Assembly (NCBI GenBank): GCA_964036195.1
Contig: OZ038453.1
Coordinates: 17,459,206 to 17,523,205, forward strand
Direction of reading: 5' to 3'
DNA length: 64,000 nucleotides
Source of the DNA: Sphaerolaimus hirsutus
Lineage: Eukaryota; Nematoda; Chromadorea; Monhysterida; Sphaerolaimidae
Part shown: piece after piece, positions 20,064-54,200 of the stretch
Position numbering within the stretch: position 1 is the stretch's first letter
Layout: each line of letters begins with the position of its first letter
Notes under the pieces: generated by a model
Told to the model about the DNA's origin: nothing
What the model saw: the letters and a program-made list of their open reading frames with translations, nothing else
Databases searched by the model: none
Made by a program: the position numbers and the translations under genes

Positions 20064-20249
20064 CTGGTGGCAGTCCCAAGCCCTGTAAAGTGTCAAATGT
20101 AAAGTAAAATGCAATGTAAACTGTCAATTGTCATGAAGATTTCAGTGATAAAATCTTTTCTTTTTTGTTTTGATTGACAGTCTGCTTTTCATTTGACTCT
20201 ACATTTGACACTTTACTTTACACTTTACAGGGCTTGGGACTGCCCCCAG
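20064..20249. mobile_element. Introner-like MITE, AAGCCCTGTAAAGTG subfamily
   Basis: CTGGTGGCAGTCCCAAGCCC on the left and GGGCTTGGGACTGCCCCCAG on the right, 186 bp. It is the closest sister of the copy that forms the intron at 24801-24996. Read on the plus strand it is GT...AG, but joining the flanks gives stops in every frame, so no intron is claimed. Confidence 0.75.
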
Positions 20250-20801: not shown

Positions 20802-20993
20802 CTGAGGGCAGCTAGTCCCAGACCCTGAGGCCTGACAATGCCCTGTAAAATGTCAAAGTTCATGCAAAGTGTCAAAAGTCATGTAAAATGCCCGGTAAAA
20901 TGGCAGCCATTTTACCGGGCATATTTTATGACTTTTGACACTGTATGACATTTGACATTTTACAGGGCAATTTACAGAGTCTGGGACTTGCAC
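20802..20993 (-). mobile_element. Introner-like MITE, possible intron on minus strand
   Basis: A 192-bp copy bounded on the minus strand by CCCTTCAG/GTGCAAGTCCC and GACTAGCTGCCCTCAG/AATC. The length equals that of the intron at 51804-51995. Joining the flanks leaves an open frame (KRMRFDRFEDVPS then ESNANSHVRKSF), but no conserved domain or further exon supports a gene, so its status as an intron is tentative. Confidence 0.5.
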
Positions 20994-21780
20994 CTGAAGG
21001 GACATCCTCAAACCTGTCAAACCTCATCCTCTTGGGCTCTATATGGGTACCTACTTTTTTTATATGTTACGCATTTCCTACTATTCGCAGACGGAGGTGT
21101 TAATCAAGGATAAGCTATCTTTTAAAACCTGGGGGGTAAGTCGTGCAAAGCAGAGTTGATAGTTGGTATTTACGTTTTACTCTACATTGTACATGTACCG
21201 GTACCCATCTGTACGCATATTTTTTTCCATCAGTACTTGATACTTTCAGAAAATTTCAGAGTACTGGGTTCTGAGTTATTTCAGAAAATTTAAGAATTTG
21301 CACTGCAAAGGAGAGTTGTTATTCGGGAAAGACGGTATATGATAAAGCTTGGATAAGTATGTACACATACACGGTTTATGTATGCATGAGCACGGTATTT
21401 ATACACGGACAATTAACGCATACCTAGTTCATGCGCCATTATTTACAGCTCACCACAAGAGTTCAACGAAATTATTTCTGTGAAATTTCGGTCGTGTTTA
21501 CCGCAGAAGAGAATTGCAAATGCAAAAAACCCACAGACATTTCGTTTTTTTTTCTTCAAAAACTCTCATAGATGACATGGGCGCACAGTTTTTGCAAAAT
21601 CACTGATGATACTCTCTTATGCAGTATGTTTACCATCACGTTGTGAACCGACAATAATCACAGTTCAAAGTAAACTAGAAATAATTACAAAAGACTATAA
21701 AAATCTGCTCGATTTTCTCTTTGAAGTTGTGTTGGCAGTACATTTCTACTCCCTACAAAGCATATGGCCTGTGCCGCTTG

Positions 21781-23369: not shown

Positions 23370-26300
23370 CTAGCTTGTGTGACACCAACATAACTGTTCA
23401 GATGAAACATGGAATGTATTCATACTCGACGGACATTTTTGTCTTATGGTCAAATTATGGAAACATGGAAAAATCAGGGAACACTTGCTTTTTTGTACTC
23501 CCTTATCATTTTTTTCATCATCAGGAAAATATCTGCTGACAGTTTTGGCAATCATCCAGTCACCCAATTGGAACAAATGTATAATGCAGACACCAATCCA
23601 AAGCCCCAGCTGGCCACCTAGAATGTGATATTTATTTGGTTGATATTTTTGACAAAATGAGTGTTTTACATTTGCTGTAAAAATATCAATATTGCTGTAT
23701 AACCTTACCAAAGTTTGACAGTAGAACATCAAAAGTAATAGCATATTCCTGGGTGAATTGTTTATAACCAACTTTAGAATGATAGATGTAAATTGTACTC
23801 GTCTTATTAGGGTTCCAAGTCTGCAAAAACGAACAATACTGTGTTTTAGACTGTAAAACAAAATACGATACCTAGAGTCACGAAACTTTGTGTCAAAACA
23901 ATTTTTATGGAAATGTGAAACATTTTGCACTTTTTGCCGGAATACGGAGAAGTGAAACGGAATTTTTTGCAATTTGCAGTCATAAATTGGAAAATGGAGT
24001 GATGAAATGCGAAAACAAACAAACAGAATGCAAAATTTGCCTAGAAATGGAAAAAGATTTGCAGAAATTTTCATCCCTGAAATGGAAAAATACACATAGG
24101 TGATTGAAGAAGTGGCTGCATGTAGGTATACCAGTTTGGGTTTGATTGTGGTCTCATCAGTCAATTATTTATTCTGCGACCGTCCCATAGCAAAAAATTA
24201 GTGTGTGGATGCACCGTCAAGCGCCGTGAAGTGTCTTCACACCAACACTTCCCAAGACTTCACAAAGCATGCTAGCCCTTCACACACATCACGAAAATAT
24301 GTGTGAAGAAACTTCACACTTCTCAACGGGTGGAAGCATCAGCATTGTGAAGTGGCTTCCACAATGTTGGAAGCACCTGAAGTGCACAGTGAAGCTAGGT
24401 GAAGCATGTGGAAGACACTTCACCTTGTGCCAATCCTAGACACTGTAAAAGCCCTGTAAAATGTCAAATGTCATGCAAAGTGTCAAAAGTTACGGAAAAT
24501 GCCCTGCAAAATGGCAACTCGGTTTCCATAGCATTTGACACTTTACATGGTCTGGGAGTGCCCCCTGGAATCTCATGATGTTTATGGAAGCATGTGGAAG
24601 CTTGTTTAAGCGCACCGTTTCGTGTTTAACGTGTTGAACACCTTAAAAAACTCACAGTTTTGTATTTTTCATTGTAATTCTCAATCCTCCACTCATCATT
24701 CTGCGCATAGCTAACTGTGGCAGTGATCTCATATCTATCACATTTCTGCTTGCAGTCCATAGCACACTGGTCATTTTTTAAGCCCCTCACAACCAGTGGC
24801 CTGGAGGCAGTCCCAAGCCCTGTAAAGTGTAAAGTAAAGGTCAAATGTAAAGTCAAATGCAAAGTAAAGTGTCAATCAAAACAAAAAAAAGAAAAGATTT
24901 TAGTACTGAACTTTGCATGACAATTGACACTTTACTTTTCATTTGACTTTACATTTGACACCTTACTTTACACTTTACAGGGCTTGGGACTGTCACCTGA
25001 CGCATAGAATGAACTGTTTGGGTGAACAAAAATCCTTCTGTGTGAGGCCGAGCACATTGTTGGTGAAAATTGTGCAGTTGCACACCTCTGTAAAGCGGGA
25101 ATTAGAGCTCAGCGTCGATTCGACGTGAAATGACGACGTGAAATGATGTCGTGAAATTAATTACACGAGTGTGGATCATGCTACGGGTCTACAATTTTCT
25201 AAGGATAATATATGAATCAATACCTTAATCGTGTCCAATACTGAGTGTTATCAGCCACAACTAGAGCGAATTGAAAAATTCAATTTTTATCATTCCACGT
25301 CATCATTTTACGTCAGGGAACAACTTAACATTTCACGTCAGACTATTGCTTGCACTCGTGTAATTAATTTCACGACATCATTTCACGTCGTCATTTCACG
25401 TCGAATCGACGCTGAGCTCTAATTTCCGCTTAAGAACACATGGCATTGATTTTGTGGGAGAGTAATGTCGCTGCACACACTAGTTTTTTAATGCAATTAA
25501 AAAATTAGGTAGTATTTACCAGATTACTTACCAGATTACCAAATTTGAGTTTTTTGACACTAAACTAGTGTGTACAGCGACAATCGATTCTCATTAAAAA
25601 GAACGTACCTTTGGCTTTGTTTACGAAACATTGGAACTGGCACCCCGCTCTGGAATATTGTGGGAAATTCTCCAGTGCAGATTCGTTGCTGCAGTAATCA
25701 GCCACTGATATGAAACGCGTCGCATCCAGCTGAAGTGTAATTTGTGTGATACATATTGTTTATTGTTCATTGTTATACTGTACTTCCTCAAAATACCCCC
25801 AGGGGGTTATGATTTCGCCAGTATATTTTGAGGGGGCTTATTCTAGGGGTGTTTATTATTGCAAAAAATACATCATGTACACTGCATACATGGTGTACAT
25901 ACCAGACGGGGGCATTTTTTCCTCGGCTCGCACAGACCTGCGGGTATTTCGAGGGAACCAATTGGATGGGGAGGATGGTAATTAACGGTGGCAAAAAATT
26001 ATTCGAAAATTCGAAAATATTTTCGAATTTTCGAATTTTTTCGGAATTTTCGAATTTTTATCCCACCACTGGAAAAAACACTTAAAAATCGATTTTTTTT
26101 TGAAAAAATTCGAAAATTCATAAATTTGAAAATAGTTTTCGAATTTTTCAGGGAATTCAAGGAAATAAAAGACATTCTTAGGTTCTATGTGCTAAATCGA
26201 TCGATAATTGATACGCGGTTCGTCTGGAAAAGTCTATCGAAACAGAAAAAAACGTCAATGAACGTTGAAATGGTATCCATGGCGGACACAGCACTGGAAT

Positions 26301-29300
26301 CGGGGAAGGCATTTTAGGAGGTAGGTCCACCAGACTTTGTGTCGCCACATTCTGTTGCACTCAACCAAATTGTTTCTTTACTTGAATCGTCCCCCAGTCC
26401 CACGAAGGGGGGTGTCTATTTATAAAAACGTGTTGATTTTACATGGCAGATCTGGCTAGTTGACTTTGAAGCTTAATAACTCGGTCATTTCTTGGCCGAT
26501 TTGGACCGTTAAATACTTAAGATGATCTGCAGAACATGTAGATTCCATTTTTGAGGTTGGATTAGTGATGTATAAATTAATTATACAATTTGACCCAGTA
26601 TTTCAACGTGTAAAATGAATTTTTATGAACATGCCATCATATACTTAATAAAAATACTGTATATCCTCGAATAAGTCCCCCTGGGGGGCGGGGTTATTTG
26701 TTGTCAGTGATTTTTGAGGGGACTTATTCAAGGGTGAGTTTTTTGAGGTGGACTTTTTGAAGCATTTATGGTAAATATATAGATAAAAATGTACAACAGA
26801 ATGGAATGACACAATAGTCAGGTGGACCCCCCCCCCCTTAACAGCCACCCACAATTCCAGCTATGGGTGGACCTGGTCACATTGAGCAATGTGCAGGAAT
26901 GCACCAAGCACCCATAACTATTTCAACATAACTACTTAACATCTCAAAGCTCTTAATTCAATATTTTTTGCCAAAAATTCAAAAAGTATGTAAAAAAATT
27001 CGAAAATTACCCAAAAAATTGAAAACTGCCCAAAAAGATTCGAAAATTCGAAAATTCAAAAATTAAATTCGAAATTCGAAAATTAATCTGAGGAAAAATT
27101 CGAAAATTGGAAAATTCATTAAGGAAAAAACACTTAAAAATTTAAATACTTTTTTCGGAGGGTTTGCCATCGTTAGTGGTAATTTGAGGAAATATGATAT
27201 ACGATATGATTGATAATACGATTGATAAAATTTATCGCAAAAGTGTGTCGCAACAATTTACCATATTTCCTCGAAATACCCTCCCACCCCCCTCGAAATA
27301 CCCCCCGTCTCGAAATACCCCCCCCCAAAAAAAAAGGGCACTGTGAAATAATTAGCCCCCCCCTCGAAATACCCACCTCGTTTAACCCCCCCCCCCCTAA
27401 AAATTCTCACTCTGAAACAATCACCCCCTGGGGGGTATTTCGATGAAATACGGTAGTGTCAAACGTTTTTCAAGGCTACCCCACCCACAGACGCTGATGT
27501 ACGCCCTGCTCTGCCTGGGCACAAAGATGGGGTTGTGCAAATTCGGTGCCCATTCACCGTCCAAGTTCAGGTGCAAGCCGTCGTCGAAACCTTGGTTCAA
27601 AACTGCCTTCGGTTCGTGGTCGTTCAGCAGGCGAACGACTAGTCTGGATATCGTATATATTCGTCGAACATGATACTCTGCCCTCGCACTCATTTATGTC
27701 TCACGTTGGAAGCGTGCCAATGATGATAAGACATGCGTTTTTTGTATATAACGTGAAAAAAATCATTGTTGTGAATATGTTCACGTATAGCGTTATAAGA
27801 GAGATGACTTTTTTCAACTTTTTATCAAAATCGCATGCGTAAAAAATCGTTGGCACGCTTCAAGCGCGAACCACGCGTACGCGTGCAGGGAGTAAAGTGA
27901 CTGGAGTATACGTAACGGTTAAGTGATGTAACGGTTCAAACGGGACCGCGGTCCCGGTATATGGTTCGGCAAAAAGTCGGGAGTGGGGCGGTCCCGGTCC
28001 CAGTCCCGGTCCGAAAAACTGGTCCCGTTTGAACCCTAGTTTATGTACCGGGTGGCCCACGTCAGGCGCACGGTTTCAATTGGCACCCAACACGTCAATT
28101 TTGAATGAAACCTGCTCAAATTTGGTATTGTGGTACCGGTAGATAAATGTACCGCATTTGTTGTGTTAAGTGCACAGTTTCATGTCGCAAGATTTCGTGT
28201 CGGAACGGGAAGAAAAGTCTAATTTTTATCTTTACGTGCTTAAACGTGTGCCATTGTAGGTGTTTATGTGGAGTGACATTGTTTTGCATATGATGTGATA
28301 AATGAGAAAATTTAGAGATATGAATGTGTGTGCTCAAAATACTAAATAGGGTACATTAATCTACGGCCATGCCAAATTTGGACCATTTTTATGAACAATT
28401 GGTGCTTTGGTAGACGATTGAACCTGTGCGCCACATTCAAACACGTATCAAACTATGCTTCACGTTCTGACATGAAAATTTGCGATGTGGAACTGTACAC
28501 TCACACAACAAATGGGGTACATTTATCTACCCCCATACCAAATTTGAGCAAGTTTGATTCAAAATTGACGTGTTGGGAGCCAATTGAAACTGGGGGCCTG
28601 ATGTGGGCCACCCTATATGATCATGGCTAACTCTGGAGAAATGTTTACAATTTTTAACAGGGAGTTTTATTTAAAATGTAAAATTTTAAATTCAGAATTT
28701 AATCAAAAATTGTTTTTCGAGTTTTTGAACACCCATTTTTGGCATACTTTTTTCTCCAATAATTTCCGGATTTTTTGCATGTAAAATAATAAATTTACAG
28801 TGTCATATTTGAACAAAAATGGCATGTTAATAAAGCATATTTCATGAAACGAATTGATAGAAACACACTTGAATTCTTTCACAAAATAACAACCCCCTTT
28901 GAATAATCCCCCCACTTAAATAGCTTCCCTTAAAAGTCTGATGCAAATATAAGCCATCAGTGCAATTCCTATAACACAAAATAGACCCCCGAATATGCCC
29001 CACCTCGAATTAACCCCCCTTCGAATTTACCCCCGTCAAAAGTTGCTGACGAAATAATAAACCCCGTGTTGGTATTTCGAGGATATACGGCAGTTTAATA
29101 ATGAACTAACTGAAGCCCAGCGGCGGGTCCGGGAAGCGCCTGGTTGTTCAGCAGGGACGTGTTCAGTGTCCAGCACATACCCGACGATGTGAGTATCAAA
29201 GTGCAGTTTGTGTACACGTGTACTTACATTTTAATACCAATTGAACCATTTTTGTGATAGTATACTCCAGTGACATTACACCTTACAATGAAATCTACCA

Positions 29301-31144
29301 TATCCCATCTGAATAAAACAACAAACATAAAAAAAATTTCATGATATTTATCAAAGCAATTCAATAAATATGATGAAAACAATTTTATGTTTGTTCTTTT
29401 ATTCAGATGGGATATGGTAGATTTCGTTGTAAGATGTAATGTCGCTGGAGTATTCAGACATTCAAAAAGGATGCACGAAGCAATGGTAATATTTATGTGT
29501 TTTACGAAATGTGGGCTTACGATTACTGTTTTATGATACCGGTTTTAAGTTTCTTCCTACAAAAAAAAAATTTGCCTCGACGAATAGTCTATTATTTGCC
29601 TCTATTTTCGAGTACAGGTAGATACTGGCTTGCGACTTTGTTAAAAACCGGCTGAAAGGGTTATTGGTTATTGGTATAATAAATGATTATTGGTAAAATG
29701 TGAAGTGAGTATAGGATGTTTCCCTAGTGTCCATGTTATGATTGCCATTCGTAAACCATATTTTTCACAAATGGTAATTAGAAAAAGTTTACACTAAAAC
29801 ATCAATCGAAATTGCAAGCGACACCGATCTGACTGCAGAAACCATTTTCCTATCCAATGACCCACCTGAAGTAACTTTTCACAATCGTGTATATGTTCCT
29901 CAAATGTGCATTTTGAAGCGAACCTCCGTGTGGTGGTAATGTTGTGAAAGAAATCGCGGTAATCGAAATCTGCAAATTTGCACAATGTTCATCAAGATAC
30001 ACATGTTACTAAATATAATTCAGAATGTACCTAGTTTAGTAACGAGGGCACACCCTCTCGAAAAAGGTATTTTAATTTGTTAACTAAACTTAAACTCAAT
30101 TCGAAAATTCGAACTGTTTTTTGAAAAAAATTGAAATTCGAAATGTCGTTTTGGAAAAAAAACACTTAAAAATTTAAATACTTTGTTCCAGAGGGTGTGC
30201 CATCGTTTGCTACTTCTATGCAAAAGGCAAATCGTATATCAACCACACAATTGATAATTCACACCTGGATAATTCCTCAGCAATTCCTGAAAAGCAGGTT
30301 CCATCTTGTTCACATATTTTTCAAGCGCTCTCGTTTTCCTTGATCTTTTATAATTATTAAATCCAACAAAACCAGCTCGCAAATATTCCAACAAATTTCT
30401 GCTGATGCCCATTTTCTTTACTTTTCTTTCGTCCATCCATTGATTTGGACAAATTTGCATGTATGGCAGGATTACCTGTCACATTATTGTATATTTTAAG
30501 AGTGGTTTAATTCAAAAAATTTATCAATTTTCTACTTAGTGTTGTCGTCACATTATTACTGCGTGGAGTGAACACTGTTTGAATCAAACTTTATTTTAAA
30601 GATGATAAATAAAACATAACCTCATGTCCATTGATGTATTCATATGTGACCATAGGCCGCTGATCCCTATATTGCACATAAACAGTCCTGGGGGCATTCC
30701 CAGACTCTGTAAAAAGCCCCGTAAAATGTCAAATGTCATGCAAAGTGTCAAAAGTAGTGATGTGAAAAGTGCCAGAACTTTGGCGCCAAGCGCCAAAAGC
30801 GCCGTGGCGCTTTTTGCCTTGGCGCTAGCGACAGGCATTTTGTTCCTGGCGCCAGTCAAAAATAGCGCCAAGCTTTTGCTTTGGCGCTAGCGCCATGGCG
30901 CTTTTACATCACTATTCAAAAGTCATTTGAAATGCCCTGCAAAATGGAAACTCGGTTACCATTTTGCAGTGCATTTCACATGACTTTTGACACCTTGCAT
31001 GACATTTACATTTTACAGGGCTTTTCACTGGGTCTGGGATCGGCACCAGCAGAAATAGAGTGACACAATTAGACAAATTACCCAGAAAATATGGAATAGA
31101 TAACCTTTCCGTATGGAAGTCTTCAACAGACGACATATATTCAT
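23370..31144 (-). CDS. DEG/ENaC-family sodium channel subunit
   Basis: Exons on the minus strand, in order: 31047-31144, 30621-30687, 30265-30475, 29862-29969 (or ending at 29866), 29111-29222, 27493-27643, 25609-25729, 24997-25087, 24656-24800, 23709-23820, 23370-23617. The total is 1464 nt (487 aa) and the phases match. Family members form trimeric, amiloride-type cation channels in the plasma membrane. The first exon holds TM1 (IRKGYLFHIFWVICLIVSLY). Exon 3 has PYMQICPNQW, the family FPAVTICN-type segment. Exon 5 has SSGMCWTLN and PGPAAGL. Exons 7-9 give the cysteine-rich domain (YSRAGCQFQCFVNKAKEVCN, CSPKQFILC, then CAMDCKQKCDRYEITATVSY). Exons 10-11 give LLSNFGGQLGLWIGVCIIHL, which contains TM2. 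The pore GxS position reads Gly-Val-Cys. The N-terminal His-Gly motif is not seen, so an upstream exon may be missing. The join between exons 4 and 5 is the least certain. The 3' end could lie further downstream. Two of its introns are exactly the introner-like MITE. Confidence 0.88.
24801..24996 (-). mobile_element. Introner: MITE that is exactly a DEG/ENaC intron
   Basis: On the minus strand the intron runs from GTGACAGTCCCAAGCCC to GGGCTTGGGACTGCCTCCAG. Both ends are the terminal inverted repeat of the element family, and no host sequence lies between repeat and splice site. The exons on both sides are strongly DEG/ENaC (CSPKQFILCV and GLKNDQCAMDC). Length 196 bp. Confidence 0.85.
25095..25431. 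mobile_element. Palindromic MITE, GAGCTCAGCGTCGATTCGAC arms
   Basis: Arms of more than 70 bp are almost perfectly complementary (AGCTCAGCGTCGATTCGACG ... CGTCGAATCGACGCTGAGCT), around a diverged centre. The left end lies 8 bp from the 3' splice site of the DEG/ENaC exon that starts at 25087, so the element contributes the sequence just upstream of that acceptor. The arms of the foldback at 31611-32470 are related. Confidence 0.8.
25770..27180. repeat. Intronic repeats: CCGTATT-type fragment and GAAAATTCGAAAATTC arrays
   Basis: Within a DEG/ENaC intron. 25783-25950 resembles the C/G-run CCGTATT family. 25985-26160 and 26990-27130 are arrays of TTCGAAAATTC. The latter ends near GGTTTGCCATCGTTAG, which recurs at 30200 as GTGTGCCATCGTTTG. 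No exon recognised. Confidence 0.5.
27259..27455. mobile_element. TA-flanked CCGTATT foldback MITE
   Basis: TACCATATTTCCTCGAAATA on the left and TATTTCGATGAAATACGGTA on the right, with C-runs between. It lies 37 bp from the donor of the DEG/ENaC exon that ends at 27493. Confidence 0.65.
27930..28040. repeat. Short GGTCCC-array element with TTCAAACGGGAC ends
   Basis: GGTTCAAACGGGACCG on the left and GGTCCCGTTTGAACCCTA on the right, with CGGTCCCGGTCCC-type repeats between. The ends match the larger hAT-type element at 62413-63687, whose array is GATCCC. No clear target duplication. Confidence 0.6.
28045..28615. repeat. Foldback repeat with GGGTGGCCCACGTCAGGC ends
   Basis: Arms at about 28049-28330 and 28370-28612 are reverse complements with many mismatches (AAATGTACCGCATTTGTTGT against ACAACAAATGGGGTACATTT). 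The centre holds the turn. It lies in a DEG/ENaC intron and has no coding support. Confidence 0.6.
29264..29457. mobile_element. Palindromic MITE, TACTCCAGTGACATTACA ends
   Basis: About 65-bp complementary arms (CTACCATATCCCATCTGAAT and its complement) around an AT-rich centre. It lies in a DEG/ENaC intron, just upstream of the exon at 29111-29222. Confidence 0.7.
30688..31046 (-). mobile_element. Introner: MITE that is exactly a DEG/ENaC intron, with nested insertion
   Basis: On the minus strand the donor is CTG/GTGCCGATCCCAGACCC and the acceptor is GGAATGCCCCCAG/G. The terminal repeats run right up to both splice sites. It separates the TM1 exon from the exon encoding TVYVQYRDQRPMVTYEY. 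A hAT element (30755-30914) is inserted inside; removing it with one target copy leaves 191 bp, the size of the other introners. Confidence 0.85.
30755..30914. mobile_element. Small GCGCC hAT-type element nested in the introner
   Basis: TAGTGATGTGAAAAGTGCC on the left and GGCGCTTTTACATCACTA on the right. The flanking 8-mers gtcaaaag and ttcaaaag match at 7/8. It interrupts the TGTCAAAAGT motif of the surrounding introner. Confidence 0.82.
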
Positions 31145-48257: not shown

Positions 48258-51200
48258 TCACTGAATTTGTGAATTGAACTGCTGAGGTGAAGACATAATA
48301 TTTATGTACACCATATTCATTCTTGAATAAGTCTACTGCCTGGGGCAGACAATTTTGATGAGGAAATTTTTGAGGGGGATTTTTCAATTAGTTTAGCGAA
48401 ATTTTGCATTGAGACAATAAGTTATTAATTTAAATTCAGATCGACTAAAATGATATTCCTTTTGTGCTTTATTTTTATTCCCAACTTGATGGCTTTCTAT
48501 TGTTTCTGATGATTTTTTCAGTCGGGAAATTATTCTATTTTTACCTAAATTGCTTAGATGTGATACTTTTTAGATGACTTATCCAAGAATATACAGCAAA
48601 TCCATGAATATTGTCACATTTCACATCAATCACGAGGCCTACTCACTCTCTTCCTTTCCACTTTCTGGAAGCACTGCTCACTCATAGTATCTAGCTTTCT
48701 AGCACATGGTAGATGTTTACTAGAAACCTGAAACGAATTATAACTTTTTTAACACTTTCTAAATGACCTATTTGAGAATAGATTGTATGCAAACATCCCC
48801 CATTAGCCATAAAAAAGAAACTTGCTTTAACTAAAAGAAAAAAGAAATGGATTGTTTGACAGATAATACATTAAATCTAGATCTAAAATAAGACATTTGA
48901 AAAATACAAACAGTTTCTAATGGTACCCATTTTCACATAATTATGCTAGGCCTATAGGTGAATATGTCAGATGATCCTGTGGTATAGTAGGGATTATGAA
49001 AATGCTCACTCCAAATCTGGACTGGAGGTATTCATATCTTCATTATTTCATACAAAACTAATTTGGAAAGTACTCATTGTCACACTACTTACAGATGTTA
49101 CCCACATCACACTGCATTTTTATCAAATGAATGGCTCACCTGTGGGAAGTCGTCAGTCATTGGAGTACAAAACGGAATGCATAGATCACCTATACCATGT
49201 TTTCTGCAGCACTCTTCATGGTCTCTTTCTTGTGCGGCACATTGAAGTAGCCCAATACCTGTTTCCATTAGTGGACATGACTTGTCAAACCACACTTTGG
49301 TCAACTGTGTTTATGTGTTGAAGCAAGAATGATACTTTGTGGCATATATTTTCCATAAATGAATGATATGAAATGAATTGTTGTTGTTTTTAGTTGACAA
49401 ACCTCCTTTTTGTTGAATTTGTCATAGTCGCACAATTTAAAACAGCTGGCTGGGACATAATATTTACAACATTTTGCAAACCTCTCATTTGGAGTAGATT
49501 TCTGTAATGGAAATGACAGTTGTTAACAATAGTTGTTGAAGTTAAGCAAACCATGCAATTGTTCAAACATTAAACAATTCTTAAAGTTCTTAAAATTCTT
49601 GTTTCCAGCTATAAAAATATATAATATAATTCAGCTAGCTAGGTGCAAGTTAGATCCAGAAACACCTTTTTTACTTAAAAAGCATCAGCCACCTGTACTT
49701 GAAACATATTTATAGGCAAATGAACTGAATCTTACACATTTTCAATAAAATTGGTTTTACACGTTTTTCACAAACCTTGTCAGGTTGAGTTATGTCATCA
49801 GTAATGTCACCAAATCCATCGCCCCAGTTGCTAAAGTCAAATTTCTCAATCTCCACTGACTTTTTCTTTTTTGACTTTTCTTCACCCTTTTTATCTTCAC
49901 TTTCATCCTCCTCACTCTCATCCTCTTCACTGTCATCCTCTTCACTGTCATCCTCTTCACTGTCATCCTCTTCACTTTCTTCATCATATTCAAACTCTTC
50001 CAATGACTCCTCGTCCTCTTCAGTTTCCTCATCATCAGATTTCTCATCTGAATCTGTTTCCTGTGATGAAACTGTGTGCAGTTGGCTGTGTAAAGTCAGG
50101 TTGGCCAGGGATTTGTAATGTGGATGATAGAACCATACAGTATCTTTTGTAATTGATAAAACAGCTAAAGCTGAGCAGTCTTCTGGGGCAGTTTGATCGG
50201 ATGTGAAAATACATACTGGTGCTGTGCATCTTAGTTTACCGCAATTTATCATGCATTATACTGAAGAAACCTCAGATTAAGAAATAACTCCTCCCTCAAA
50301 TAACTCAAACATCTGCTACAAAACCTAGTCAACAACAACTCTGTATCCAAACATGAATTTAATGTAACTCACACTGAAATTTCTAATGACATAATTATGA
50401 CAATGCACCAACCTCTTCTTCCTCAGTATCCTCTTCAGTATCCTCTTCCTCAGTGTCCTTTTCCTCAGTATCCTCTTCTTCAGTCTCATCTTCCTCACTG
50501 TCACCCTCCTCAGTCTCATCATCATATTCCAAGCTCCCCAATTCTGGAAGTTCTGTGGTTGCTTCAACTGAATCACTTTTTGAGGATGTTGTCGTACTGG
50601 ATGTGGTTGTGCTGGTTGTGCTCATGGTGGTTGTGCTGTATTTCTGCAAAATTTGGGATGATTTCTTTAGTTGGAGTTTTAGGTAAAGCCAAGTTTTTGA
50701 ACGGACAAGGGCCTGCAGTGCTTTTTGTTCTAAAGCTGGTCAAAGCTTTTTGGTTATACATAATAGGACTGGTCTTTTTGTGTCACAGCCAAGATGCACT
50801 ATAGCACCAAAAATTGACACTGGAGTTTTTTCAGCACTTTAAAACAGCTTTTTAGAAATACTTAAGTGATATGGTATTGACATGTTTGAACATACATGGA
50901 AGAAACCTAGATTTCGAACAGAGGGTATGCTTGGCAGGCATCACAATTAGTATGGAAACCTATTATAACCCATCAGAATAATGAACCAAAAATTATACTG
51001 TTTTTCATCATAATATTTCATTTTTACTATAGTAAAAAATAATTATGAAATTTATCACAGGAACGGAAAACGGAAGAAATTGCACTTGGCGGAAAACGGA
51101 AACGGAAAAAAATTTTTCAGTGGCCGGAAAACGGAAAAAAGGGGCCGGAAAAATGGAAACGGAACAATGACATTTGCATGGAAATGGAAAAATTTGCTGA

Positions 51201-54200
51201 AATTTTGCCAGAAAACAGATAAAATTTGCTGAAATTTTGCTGGAAGTGAAAAATTTTTGCTGGGAACAGAAAATTTTTACATAATTGATGATCTGCATGA
51301 ATTTTTTCCCAGTTTGGCTGGAACAGAAAACAGAAAGTTGAGCCAAAAAAGGTAAAATGAGGCAGAAAAACAGAAAATTGAGGTGAAAAACGGAAAAAAG
51401 GTGGAAAAAACTGGACATTGAGCTTGAAAACAGAAAAAGGCGGAAAAACAGAAAATTGAGCCAGAAAACGGAAAATGAGCCGAAAAAACGGCAATGGAAA
51501 GAAAGTGGCCAGAAAACGGAACGGAAAATGGAAGAAAAAAATTCAGCAGCCGGAAAACGGTCTGGAAAACGGAAAAAATTTGCCTGCAGAAAACAGAAAA
51601 TGGAAATTTGACACCCTAAGTGTAAGTATGGCATATCAGACATCACCCACCTCTTCAGCATGTTCCATAAAGCATTTCTGCATCTCTTTATCATATCTCA
51701 AGCATGGAGCCAATCTAAACTTCCCATCCCCATTGAACAATTCATCAGACTCTTTCGTATCAGGCGAGCACAAATGCAGACATCTTCCTGGAACACCAGA
51801 ATCCTGGCGGCAGTCCCAGACCCTGTAAAATTCCCTGTAAAATGTCAAATGTCATTCAAAGTGTCAAAAGTCATGTAAAATGCTCTGCAAAATGGCAACT
51901 CGGTTGCCATTTTGCAGAGCATTTTACATGACTTTTTACACTTTGCATGATATTTGACATTTTGCAGGGCAAATTGCTGGGTCTGGGATTGGAACCTGGC
52001 AGCACTTTTCCAGGGAGGTTCCATCTGTGGCGCAGCTGAAATAGATTTGTTGCACTTCGCGCAGGGGGCACAGGGCGTCGGGCTGCCACATGCGCAGTAG
52101 CTGGGTTGGGGGGGGGCAGAGTTGTTAAAATATCAAACTTTTTCAAAGTATATGTAAAGTATTTATTTTTACTCACCCTGGTACTTAGAAACTGTACCCA
52201 ATAATGTACCAAAAAATGTAGTGAAATATAGTGATGTAAGAGCATCATAGCGCTTGGCGTCATTGGCACTGGGTTTTGGAAAACCGCCATGCCATGGCAC
52301 TTTTAGCGCAATTTTTTTATGGCGCTAGGAACAAAGCGTCTGGCGCTGGCCTGGCGCTAGCGCCAAAACAAAAAGCCCCATGGAACTTTTGACGCCAAAG
52401 TCGTATCGCTTTTTTAACATCGATAGTGAAATAAATTTTCGAGCAATATCGTCAGCCATAGGCTGTGCAATGAATAAATGGACAATTAGCGATTTATGAC
52501 ACGTGACTTGACACAAAATACCAATTGTGAAGTTACTTATCACTAGTCAACTTGCAGAATTGACACAACGCCAATACCTGCTTAGGTGGTACAAAAAGTG
52601 CCAGCCAGGCCACCCATCCCAACTAGGGTGTCAAATTTCCGTTTCCGTTTTCTGTTTCCGCCTTTCTGCAGGAAAATTTTTTACCTTTCCGTTTTCCGTT
52701 TTCCGGCAGCTGAAATTTTTTTACCTTTCCGTTTTCCGTTTTCCATTTTCCGGCAGCTGAAAATTTTTTACCTTTCCGTTTTCCGTTTTCCAGCAGCTGA
52801 AAATTTTTTACCTTTCCGTTTCCGTTTTTCCGGCCCATTTTTCCGTTTTCCGGCTGAAAAAGATTTACCTTTCCGTTTCCATTTTTCCAGGCCATTTTTC
52901 CATTTTCTGGCTTGATTTTCAGTTTTCTGGCATTTTTCCATTTTTTTCCAATCTGTATTTATCTTTTTCCACCATGGTGTTTTTTTCTACCAGGTTCTTG
53001 TGTCATTCATAATTTTTATCTGTATCCAAATCTGTATCAGATGTGCTCACAAAGACGTGAAGACGAGAAAGACGAGACATGCTCACAAAACTCGGAGTCA
53101 AGATGTTTGCTGCCGATGGCTCGATTCTGCTTGGAAATCCCAACTACCTGGCCAGTCTGCGCAACATCACCACACAAACTGATTTGGCTGATTTGTCAAC
53201 CTGCGACATCAAGTTACGACCACCCACCTATCAATTTGGGAAGACTGCTGATTCTGCAAATGTTGCTGAATGGTCAAGCCCTCATGCAACACATCAAGGA
53301 AAGTGCAGCAGAAGGCCAAGTTGATGGATGTTGGATAAAAGACCTGCTGTCAATGCAAGACATGAAATTTGTTCATTTGATTGAGGAAACTCTTTTGTGT
53401 ATAAGCTTTTCTGTTTTCCCATGCAAACATTGTTCAATTGGTTTTTGTAACTTCAGATATGTGAAACTTGTAAACTCTGTTGTATCTCTTACCTTTTTAT
53501 GATTATCTGAGGTCATATAATCCGGTTACCACCTGAGGAGTTGAGTAGTAGTGTAGATGGGGTTATTACCAAACCCGCGATTGTTATGTTTCAAGTGCAC
53601 ACCACCTGTGACCTTTTGTGATGCATGTTCAGTTCAGCACTGTGCAATAAACTTGCTCTCCCAACTGTGTCTTGGGGTTGTGGGCCCCGTGTTGACCCAC
53701 ATCTACTCCAACTTTATTGTTGTTGTAGTGTATTTTTGCTACCTTTTGATGATTTTTTGTTGGTTCAGTTAAGCTTGAACGACAAGTGAAGTTACTGGCA
53801 TGATCCATAGTTGCAGAATGTACAGCTGCATGCAAATTTGTCCATTTCCGTGCAAATTTCACGTTATTTTTTCCGTTTCCGTGAAAATTTTGCTTTCCGT
53901 TTTCCGGCATTTCATTTTTCCGTTTTCCGGCTGATAATTATTTTTACCTTTCCGTTTTCCGCTGAGTGAAAAATTTTTACCTTTCCATTTTCCGGCAGAA
54001 ATTTTTTTTTTACCTTTCCGTTTTCCTTTTTCTGTAAAGTGAAAAAATTTTACCTTTCCGTTTTCCGTAAAAAAAATTTTTTGACACCCTAATCCCAACA
54101 CAGAAATCGTACCGACGGAAAAATGAAAAAAAAACAGGCAGTGAAATTGAAACGCACCAATCTCTTGTCAAAGAAGCGATATCTGCAGAAGAAATTGCAT

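Follow-up and report, generated by a model that had tools for sequence, protein, structure and literature searches.

A palindromic DNA transposon with a CWG target duplication probably acts as an introner in the nematode Sphaerolaimus hirsutus

The window, by which we mean the whole 64,000-nucleotide stretch of DNA analyzed here (G000:C4:17459206-17523205), belongs to a genome of 348 Mb in 762 contigs. It contains a DEG/ENaC gene with two predicted introns and a DB-module gene with one, all on the minus strand. The first DEG/ENaC intron (24801 to 24996) consists of a MITE of the AAGCC subfamily (24804-24996, 193 bp) and one copy of its CAG target duplication (plus-strand CTG, 24801-24803); the second CAG copy (24997 to 24999) forms the exon end before GT. 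The second DEG/ENaC intron (30688 to 31046) is a MITE of the AGACC subfamily with a nested insertion. The DB-module intron (51804 to 51995) is again an AGACC-subfamily MITE (189 bp, 51807-51995) plus one CAG copy, and the other CAG copy (51996 to 51998) is the exon end before GT. Read on the minus strand, with slashes at the predicted junctions, the ends are CAG/GTGACAG...CCTCCAG/, CTG/GTGCCGA...CCCCCAG/ and CAG/GTTCCAA...CCGCCAG/, respectively. Thus, copies 1 and 3 carry the duplication pair CAG...CAG and copy 2 carries CTG...CAG.

A sequence-only reading of the window had described these stretches as copies of one palindromic MITE family that coincide with GT-AG introns. Indeed, all three are present at these coordinates on the minus strand, run from GT to AG and belong to a single inverted-repeat family. 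The nested insertion proposed for copy 2 was also found; it is a separate palindromic, GGCGCC-rich element at approximately 30755 to 30914 (TAGTGATG...CATCACTA). The proposal that the terminal inverted repeat (TIR) provides the splice signals held for the GT, which comes from the element end. The acceptor AG and the exonic AG or TG proved to be target duplication, not TIR.

The coding sequence had further been said to join in frame within conserved family motifs at each junction. This was so at junction 3, which is crossed by Pfam DB (9.1e-10), and in the hand-joined DEG/ENaC protein, which matched ASC (8.1e-22) over a stretch including junction 1. A trimmed 79-residue piece spanning junction 1 gave ASC at 0.006, under the Pfam cut-off, whereas nothing in Pfam matched a longer piece of 112 residues. 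At junction 2 the frame reads continuously (...SLYFC-W-TVYVQYRDQRP), and no trustworthy Pfam match crosses it; a YpmT match of the junction-2 exon (0.0018) was doubtful and was excluded. No relative of the joined DEG/ENaC protein was found in the protein database, and an Rfam scan of the window gave no match at the gathering threshold.

Four further copies were located in the window. A plus-strand CTG..CAG copy (20067 to 20249) showed no joined frame of at least 45 residues across it, and a shortened plus-strand copy near the DEG/ENaC gene (24427 to 24567) had no recognized coding frame across it. On the minus strand, a CAG..CTG copy (2105 to 2272) and a diverged copy (20809 to 20996) are each crossed by an open frame of the opposite strand. 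Sequence related to the GGCGCC-rich palindromic element also occurs near 52230-52440 and at one locus outside the window (L013). The region of the DB-module gene is flanked by long low-complexity arrays of the GGAAAACGGAAA type and its complement (51000-51640 and 52620-52990).

Comparison of 105 distinct copies revealed that the element starts G(T/G)G(C/G)CARTCCC and has CWG on both sides. The element proper can be written GTGSCARTCCC...GGGAYTGCCCC, with a 3-bp CWG duplication on each side. The triplet pairs were CAG..CAG in 25 copies, CTG..CTG in 22, CTG..CAG in 14 and CAG..CTG in 6, and 38 of the 105 had another triplet on at least one side. Left and right flanks were identical at the three duplicated positions in 81, 59 and 81 of 104 copies; among 12 neighboring positions tested, identity was 20 to 48 of 104 at eleven, and the twelfth, where a G is conserved, reached 63 of 104. 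Since copies with identical triplets are mostly preceded by C and followed by G, the target is CCWGG. The inverted repeat measures about 90 bp per arm, and the two ends are unlike: one begins GTG, a donor if it lies upstream, and the other GGG (GGGGGC at the acceptor end). Because of this asymmetry, most copies can form a GT intron in only one orientation.

Two subfamilies were named by their end sequence. The AAGCC consensus is 192 bp long and is matched by 51 copies at a mean identity of 0.965; the AGACC consensus is 189 bp long and is matched by 36 copies at 0.934. RNA folding predicted one near-perfect hairpin for each, at -126 and -167 kcal/mol, respectively. Like other MITEs, these elements are short and non-coding, with TIRs, a high copy number and near-uniform length; the TIRs and the CWG duplication are also what is expected of an introner that is a mobile element.

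A genome-wide search for the element, which the sequence-only reading had proposed, was carried out with the pattern CTGGNGNCARTCCC-N(150-180)-GGGAYTGNCNCCWG. It gave 907 forward and 944 reverse exact two-ended matches, and 0 + 0 in the reversed control. The first 100 matches corresponded to 86 places, since copies that are nearly symmetric are hit once per strand; exact CTG..CAG copies numbered 142 genome-wide. A very loose end motif (7 mismatches) was worthless as a census, since it found 259 ends where shuffling gave 216 on average. Two position-ordered samples were then considered. Sample A comprised 20 pattern places of both subfamilies from the start of C1 (L080-L099), leaving out places fetched before, and 10 of the 20 were submitted to Pfam directly or via a near-identical locus; four had Pfam-supported coding flanks, with a match crossing the junction in two of these. 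Sample B added another 20 places, all of AGACC type (L100-L119), and Pfam was run for 18 of them; seven had Pfam-supported coding flanks, with a match crossing the junction in six. Together, at least 11 of the 40 places have Pfam-supported coding flanks. The pattern counts stand for approximately 1,600 places, and extrapolation to these from the non-random sample would put the number of introns at several hundred. Exonic AAGCC-type copies were few among those examined, window copy 1 being one of them. A pair of duplicated innexin genes approximately 17 kb apart (L012 and L015, G000:C7) has an introner in common; in one of the two copies a single C is missing from the 3' end, and the flanks would still join in frame.

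To follow the protein across the junctions, the element and one CWG were removed, the flanks were joined and Pfam was run, with a match through the junction at E ≤ 0.01 as the criterion. Sense denotes the strand on which the GT end is upstream. The 58 sense proteins represent 54 distinct junctions (window copy 1, L033, L074 and L075 were submitted twice), chosen by eye as looking coding. A Pfam match crossed the junction in 23 of these 54, in 22 genes, a fraction that is not an estimate because the junctions were hand-picked; 15 of the 23 lie above Pfam's curated cut-off. The eight under it are the ASC piece, WD40, MSP, Zip, UDPGT, Kelch and the zinc fingers L101 and L104. In each of the 23, sequence shared by the family extends up to both splice boundaries as these are placed by protein continuity.

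Fifteen of the 23 supported junctions have an AG acceptor. Besides ASC and DB in the window, these are DDX18 (L014), BCKDHA (L017:725), Patched/SSD (L027), innexin (L015), WD40 (L077), an MSP domain (L030:591), Patched (L036), GH1 (L051), PAN (L096), ZIP (L112), ETF-QO (L118) and the two zinc finger loci L101 and L104. At L077, WD40 exceeds the junction by only 2 residues and Beta-prop_THOC3 (3.9e-5) by 19. Seven have TG instead: BCKDHA (L017:1501), HSP70 (L023), UGT (L029), a SecD/SecF-like protein (L074), ANTH/PICALM (L078), Oscp1 (L088) and an Srx GPCR (L110). One, Kelch (L021), has CG. Exact removal would therefore amount to 15 GT-AG, 7 GT-TG and 1 GT-CG introns.

No match at E ≤ 0.01 was obtained for the sense junctions of L011, L016, L018, L019, L022, L024, L029:786, L033, L043, L044, L063, L072, L075, L085, L087, L093, L095, L097, L100, L103, L105, L108, L109, L115, L116 and L117. 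A nec1 match through the junction of L090 (0.007) was judged doubtful and excluded, as were matches that stop at or near the junction (S9 in L094, cadherin in L106 and LRR in L013).

The 24 antisense controls comprised 10 of 18 loci (the long ones; L013, L085 and six shorter loci were excluded) and a further 8 + 6 frames. Where GT and AG are intact, the sense frames were inspected visually and antisense was tested for those 10 of the 18 loci; for the remaining copies both strands were read. A single control passed, the zinc fingers of L102 (G000:C1:7144913-7145355; zf-H2C2_2 at 5.6e-4, under the cut-off), the sole antisense coding copy that was counted. An NAD-GH match antisense to HSP70 (6.1e-9) was excluded; we take this family to be an antisense-HSP70 artefact, and counting it would give 2 of 24. 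An antisense cecropin match reached 0.02. The sense and antisense rates are not estimates, since some controls merely reverse an exon that already codes on the sense strand; with this proviso, Fisher's test gave 0.0004 for 23/54 versus 1/24 (0.003 versus 2/24) and, with cut-offs applied, 0.004 for 15/54 versus 0/24 (0.017 versus 1/24). Of the 24 Pfam-supported junctions, 23 are sense (binomial, 1.5e-6).

Comparison with solved structures gave alignments for all five proteins submitted. Among the best shown, gap-free alignments ran through the junction in DDX18 (5.4e-36), HSP70 (2e-31), ETF-QO (1.4e-28) and PICALM (1.1e-25). In BCKDHA (1e-56), the alignment crossed both introner junctions, and its one gap, a single residue, lies near the first of them. 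Other measures separated less well. The stop-free span across the junction had medians of 341 in sense versus 300 and 310 in shifted controls and 219 in antisense, a poor separation, because GC-rich flanks are open by chance. A weak codon-usage classifier, trained on 16 junctions, scored both flanks as coding-like in 17 copies; the two flanks agreed in strand in 8 of these, which is the chance level, and all 8 also agree in frame.

These data support the introner interpretation that had been put forward for the window: the family recurs in the same way in many unrelated conserved genes, and the protein is recovered when it is removed, almost without exception on a single strand. Very probably, the element is an introner, a non-autonomous, fully palindromic PIF/Harbinger (NuwaI-like) DNA transposon with a CCWGG target and a CWG duplication, and its splicing would restore the pre-insertion mRNA. 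We infer the splicing from the continuity of the proteins at the junctions. In the mechanism that we propose, a PIF/Harbinger-type transposase acting in trans would cut CCWGG and duplicate CWG. The 5' splice site GTGSC would lie at one element end only, and with that end upstream the insertion would read exon-CWG/GTGSC...GCCCC-CWG/exon. For the spliceosome, the exon would end with the upstream CWG and the intron with the downstream one, and therefore the mRNA would regain its pre-insertion sequence in any phase. The upstream CWG and the GTG of the element would together form CWG/GTG, a good donor if W is A, and the near-perfect RNA hairpin may juxtapose the two intron ends. A CAG target would give a perfect GT-AG intron. 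A CTG target would give a GT-TG intron, which is apparently tolerated and often upgraded to CAG by a T-to-A change. Insertions with the GT end downstream would disrupt the exon and the copy would be lost, and the strand bias would result from this loss from exons.

Bursts of intron gain have been attributed to introners, of which there are few reports in animals. Here, letter by letter, the CCWGG preference and the 3-bp duplication would supply the proto-splice site AG/G on one side and the acceptor on the other. With both splice signals provided in this way, a DNA transposon would be nearly preadapted to making harmless introns. Three copies speak against the scheme: L102, Pfam-supported in antisense, would need GG-AG for exact removal, Kelch would be GT-CG, and L018 (G000:C14:16689440-16692627), in which a cysteine-repeat protein is interrupted by a copy with GA for GT, would be GA-AG if spliced. 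The ends of L102 and of L018, whose cysteine-repeat frame has no Pfam match, suggest still looser splice sites or damaged genes.

The acceptor divides the interpretation. We consider it nearly an even prospect that the transposon has made functional GT-TG introns in large number, so that any CWG target works, TG is tolerated and one mutation later gives GT-AG. The left triplet of the 23 supported sense copies is CAG in 11, CTG in 11 and CCG in 1. Among the 11 supported CTG arrivals, four are now CTG..CAG, and no supported copy is CAG..CTG. The simplest reading of these triplets is that a TG acceptor may be tolerated on arrival and then upgraded by one T-to-A change. For all copies, the excess of CTG..CAG over CAG..CTG (14 versus 6) was not significant (one-sided p, 0.058). 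The CAG/CTG split is in effect an experiment on the acceptor set up by nature, in which the same element sits in otherwise equal insertions that differ by one base. BCKDHA (L017, G000:C1:8333722-8336911) has a CAG..CAG introner and a CTG..CTG introner within less than 1 kb, so that AG and TG acceptors can be compared in a single gene.

Somewhat short of an even prospect, in our view, is the alternative that only the CAG copies are true introners and that the exonic CTG copies are not GT-TG introns, either using inner or neighboring sites or being non-functional or polymorphic alleles. TG acceptors are rare elsewhere, and suitable sites exist nearby. The four nearest in-frame alternatives were printed for each copy, with the Srx copy (L110) left out and OSCP1 void because the exon ends within the stretch. 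A GC donor 2 bp inside the element together with an inner TTTACAG acceptor gives an in-frame GC-AG pair adding 7 residues in six copies (BCKDHA-b, HSP70, UGT, L074, L075 and PICALM). In-frame GT-AG pairs would change the protein by 4 to 9 residues, with PICALM, L074 and Kelch losing 4 to 9 and L075 gaining 4. However, among the four nearest alternatives printed, no GT-AG pair was present for BCKDHA-b, HSP70 or UGT. Moreover, all seven Pfam-supported TG-type copies have the GT end upstream, and CTG and CAG arrivals are equally frequent among supported sense copies, as if both were tolerated. If functional GT-TG introns exist as proposed, this would be the second animal lineage, after Fritillaria, in which a less strict spliceosome accompanies transposon-made introns, and the successive steps by which an intron is born would become visible. 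If the TG acceptors are used, a transposon would have driven the loosening of the rule for 3' splice sites.

It is improbable that the elements are removed from DNA, by precise excision or programmed somatic elimination, instead of being spliced. Precise transposon excision would likewise restore the target exactly with one CWG kept, and CTG..CTG copies would then need no AG. Orientation, however, should be irrelevant to DNA excision, and the supported coding copies are 23 sense against 1 antisense. Furthermore, both members carry the element in the four unplaced-contig or duplicate pairs noticed (L007/L039, L012/L015, L013/L083 and L024/L025). Still less probable is a landing of MITEs in pre-existing introns with an accidental coincidence of splice sites. 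MITEs are common in introns, and 29 of the 40 places in the position-ordered samples are without Pfam support (12 of these not submitted to Pfam), yet the supported cases show no remnant of an older intron on either side: the junction is made up of the element ends and the CWG, with the host protein running straight on from it. That the in-frame joins are chance open frames, as the GC-rich flanks and the poor separation of open-frame length from shifted controls might suggest, is hardly credible given that curated profiles and solved-structure sequences such as DDX18 and ETF-QO cross the junctions and that only one antisense control passed.

A transposon-derived introner would not be without precedent. 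Huff et al. are said to have described in 2016 MITE introners of Micromonas and Aureococcus in which a DNA transposon makes introns and a splice site is co-opted from the target duplication; the present lineage and element are different ones. In the survey by Gozashti et al. 2022 (PMC9860276), introners are defined by similarity up to both splice sites, only two animal groups are reported to have them, and splice sites drawn from target duplications are described. As far as that text goes, the family studied here agrees with those introners in being a repeat family that reaches both splice sites, in its TIRs and target duplication, in a splice site derived from the duplication and in an unchanged spliced length. 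It differs in the 3-bp CWG duplication, the whole-length palindrome, the likely PIF/Harbinger origin and the apparent TG acceptors. This suggests a variant of the introners already known, with the CWG duplication, the palindrome and the apparent TG acceptors new relative to the portion of PMC9860276 at hand. No such family is named in the titles or abstract openings of the introner papers that were listed; a fungal study was the only match at that level for introners together with Harbinger. Nor was such a family found in the accessible part of a nematode intron-gain paper (PMC9169325).

The YAY-flanked introns of Fritillaria borealis appear to be the closest parallel. According to the available part of that account (PMC13326754), YAY often precedes the 5' splice site, and introns of the AG/AC and AG/AT types almost always end in it. 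In both systems, then, the triplet directly upstream of the 5' splice site is repeated at the very end of the intron (YAY there, CWG here), and intron ends need not be GT/AG. In Fritillaria, however, AG/AC and AG/AT are the commonest and U2AF is duplicated, whereas here the ends are GT/AG and apparent GT/TG; no Harbinger link was found in the text available.

The NuwaI group of PHIS (PIF/Harbinger) is defined by a 3-bp CWG duplication, has TIRs of 12-61 bp that usually start GGG and occurs in animals only, as stated in the accessible part of PMC4482050. The present family resembles it in its CWG duplication and in its animal host; of its two ends, the acceptor end starts GGGGGC and the donor end GTG, and each arm of its inverted repeat has about 90 bp. 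A DDE transposase belongs to the definition of NuwaI families, in contrast to the 190-bp palindrome without coding capacity found here, and the same portion of PMC4482050 yielded no intron role for NuwaI. TG has been described as an alternative 3' splice site of human U2 introns in 36 genes (PMC2374985). The apparent TG sites of the present copies, read from sequence alone, would be like these in using TG at the 3' end. They would be unlike them in that TG is an alternative site there and would be the sole exact site, derived from a transposon target, here.

Matches to an Srx receptor, the DB module and an MSP domain suggest that the host is a nematode or near relative. COX1 is 90% identical to one entry of the protein database, and the named hits that were inspected, from insects and a priapulid, reach 66-71%. 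This gene lies on an apparent mitochondrial contig (G000:C762, L079) and reads with TGA as W and AGA/AGG as S.
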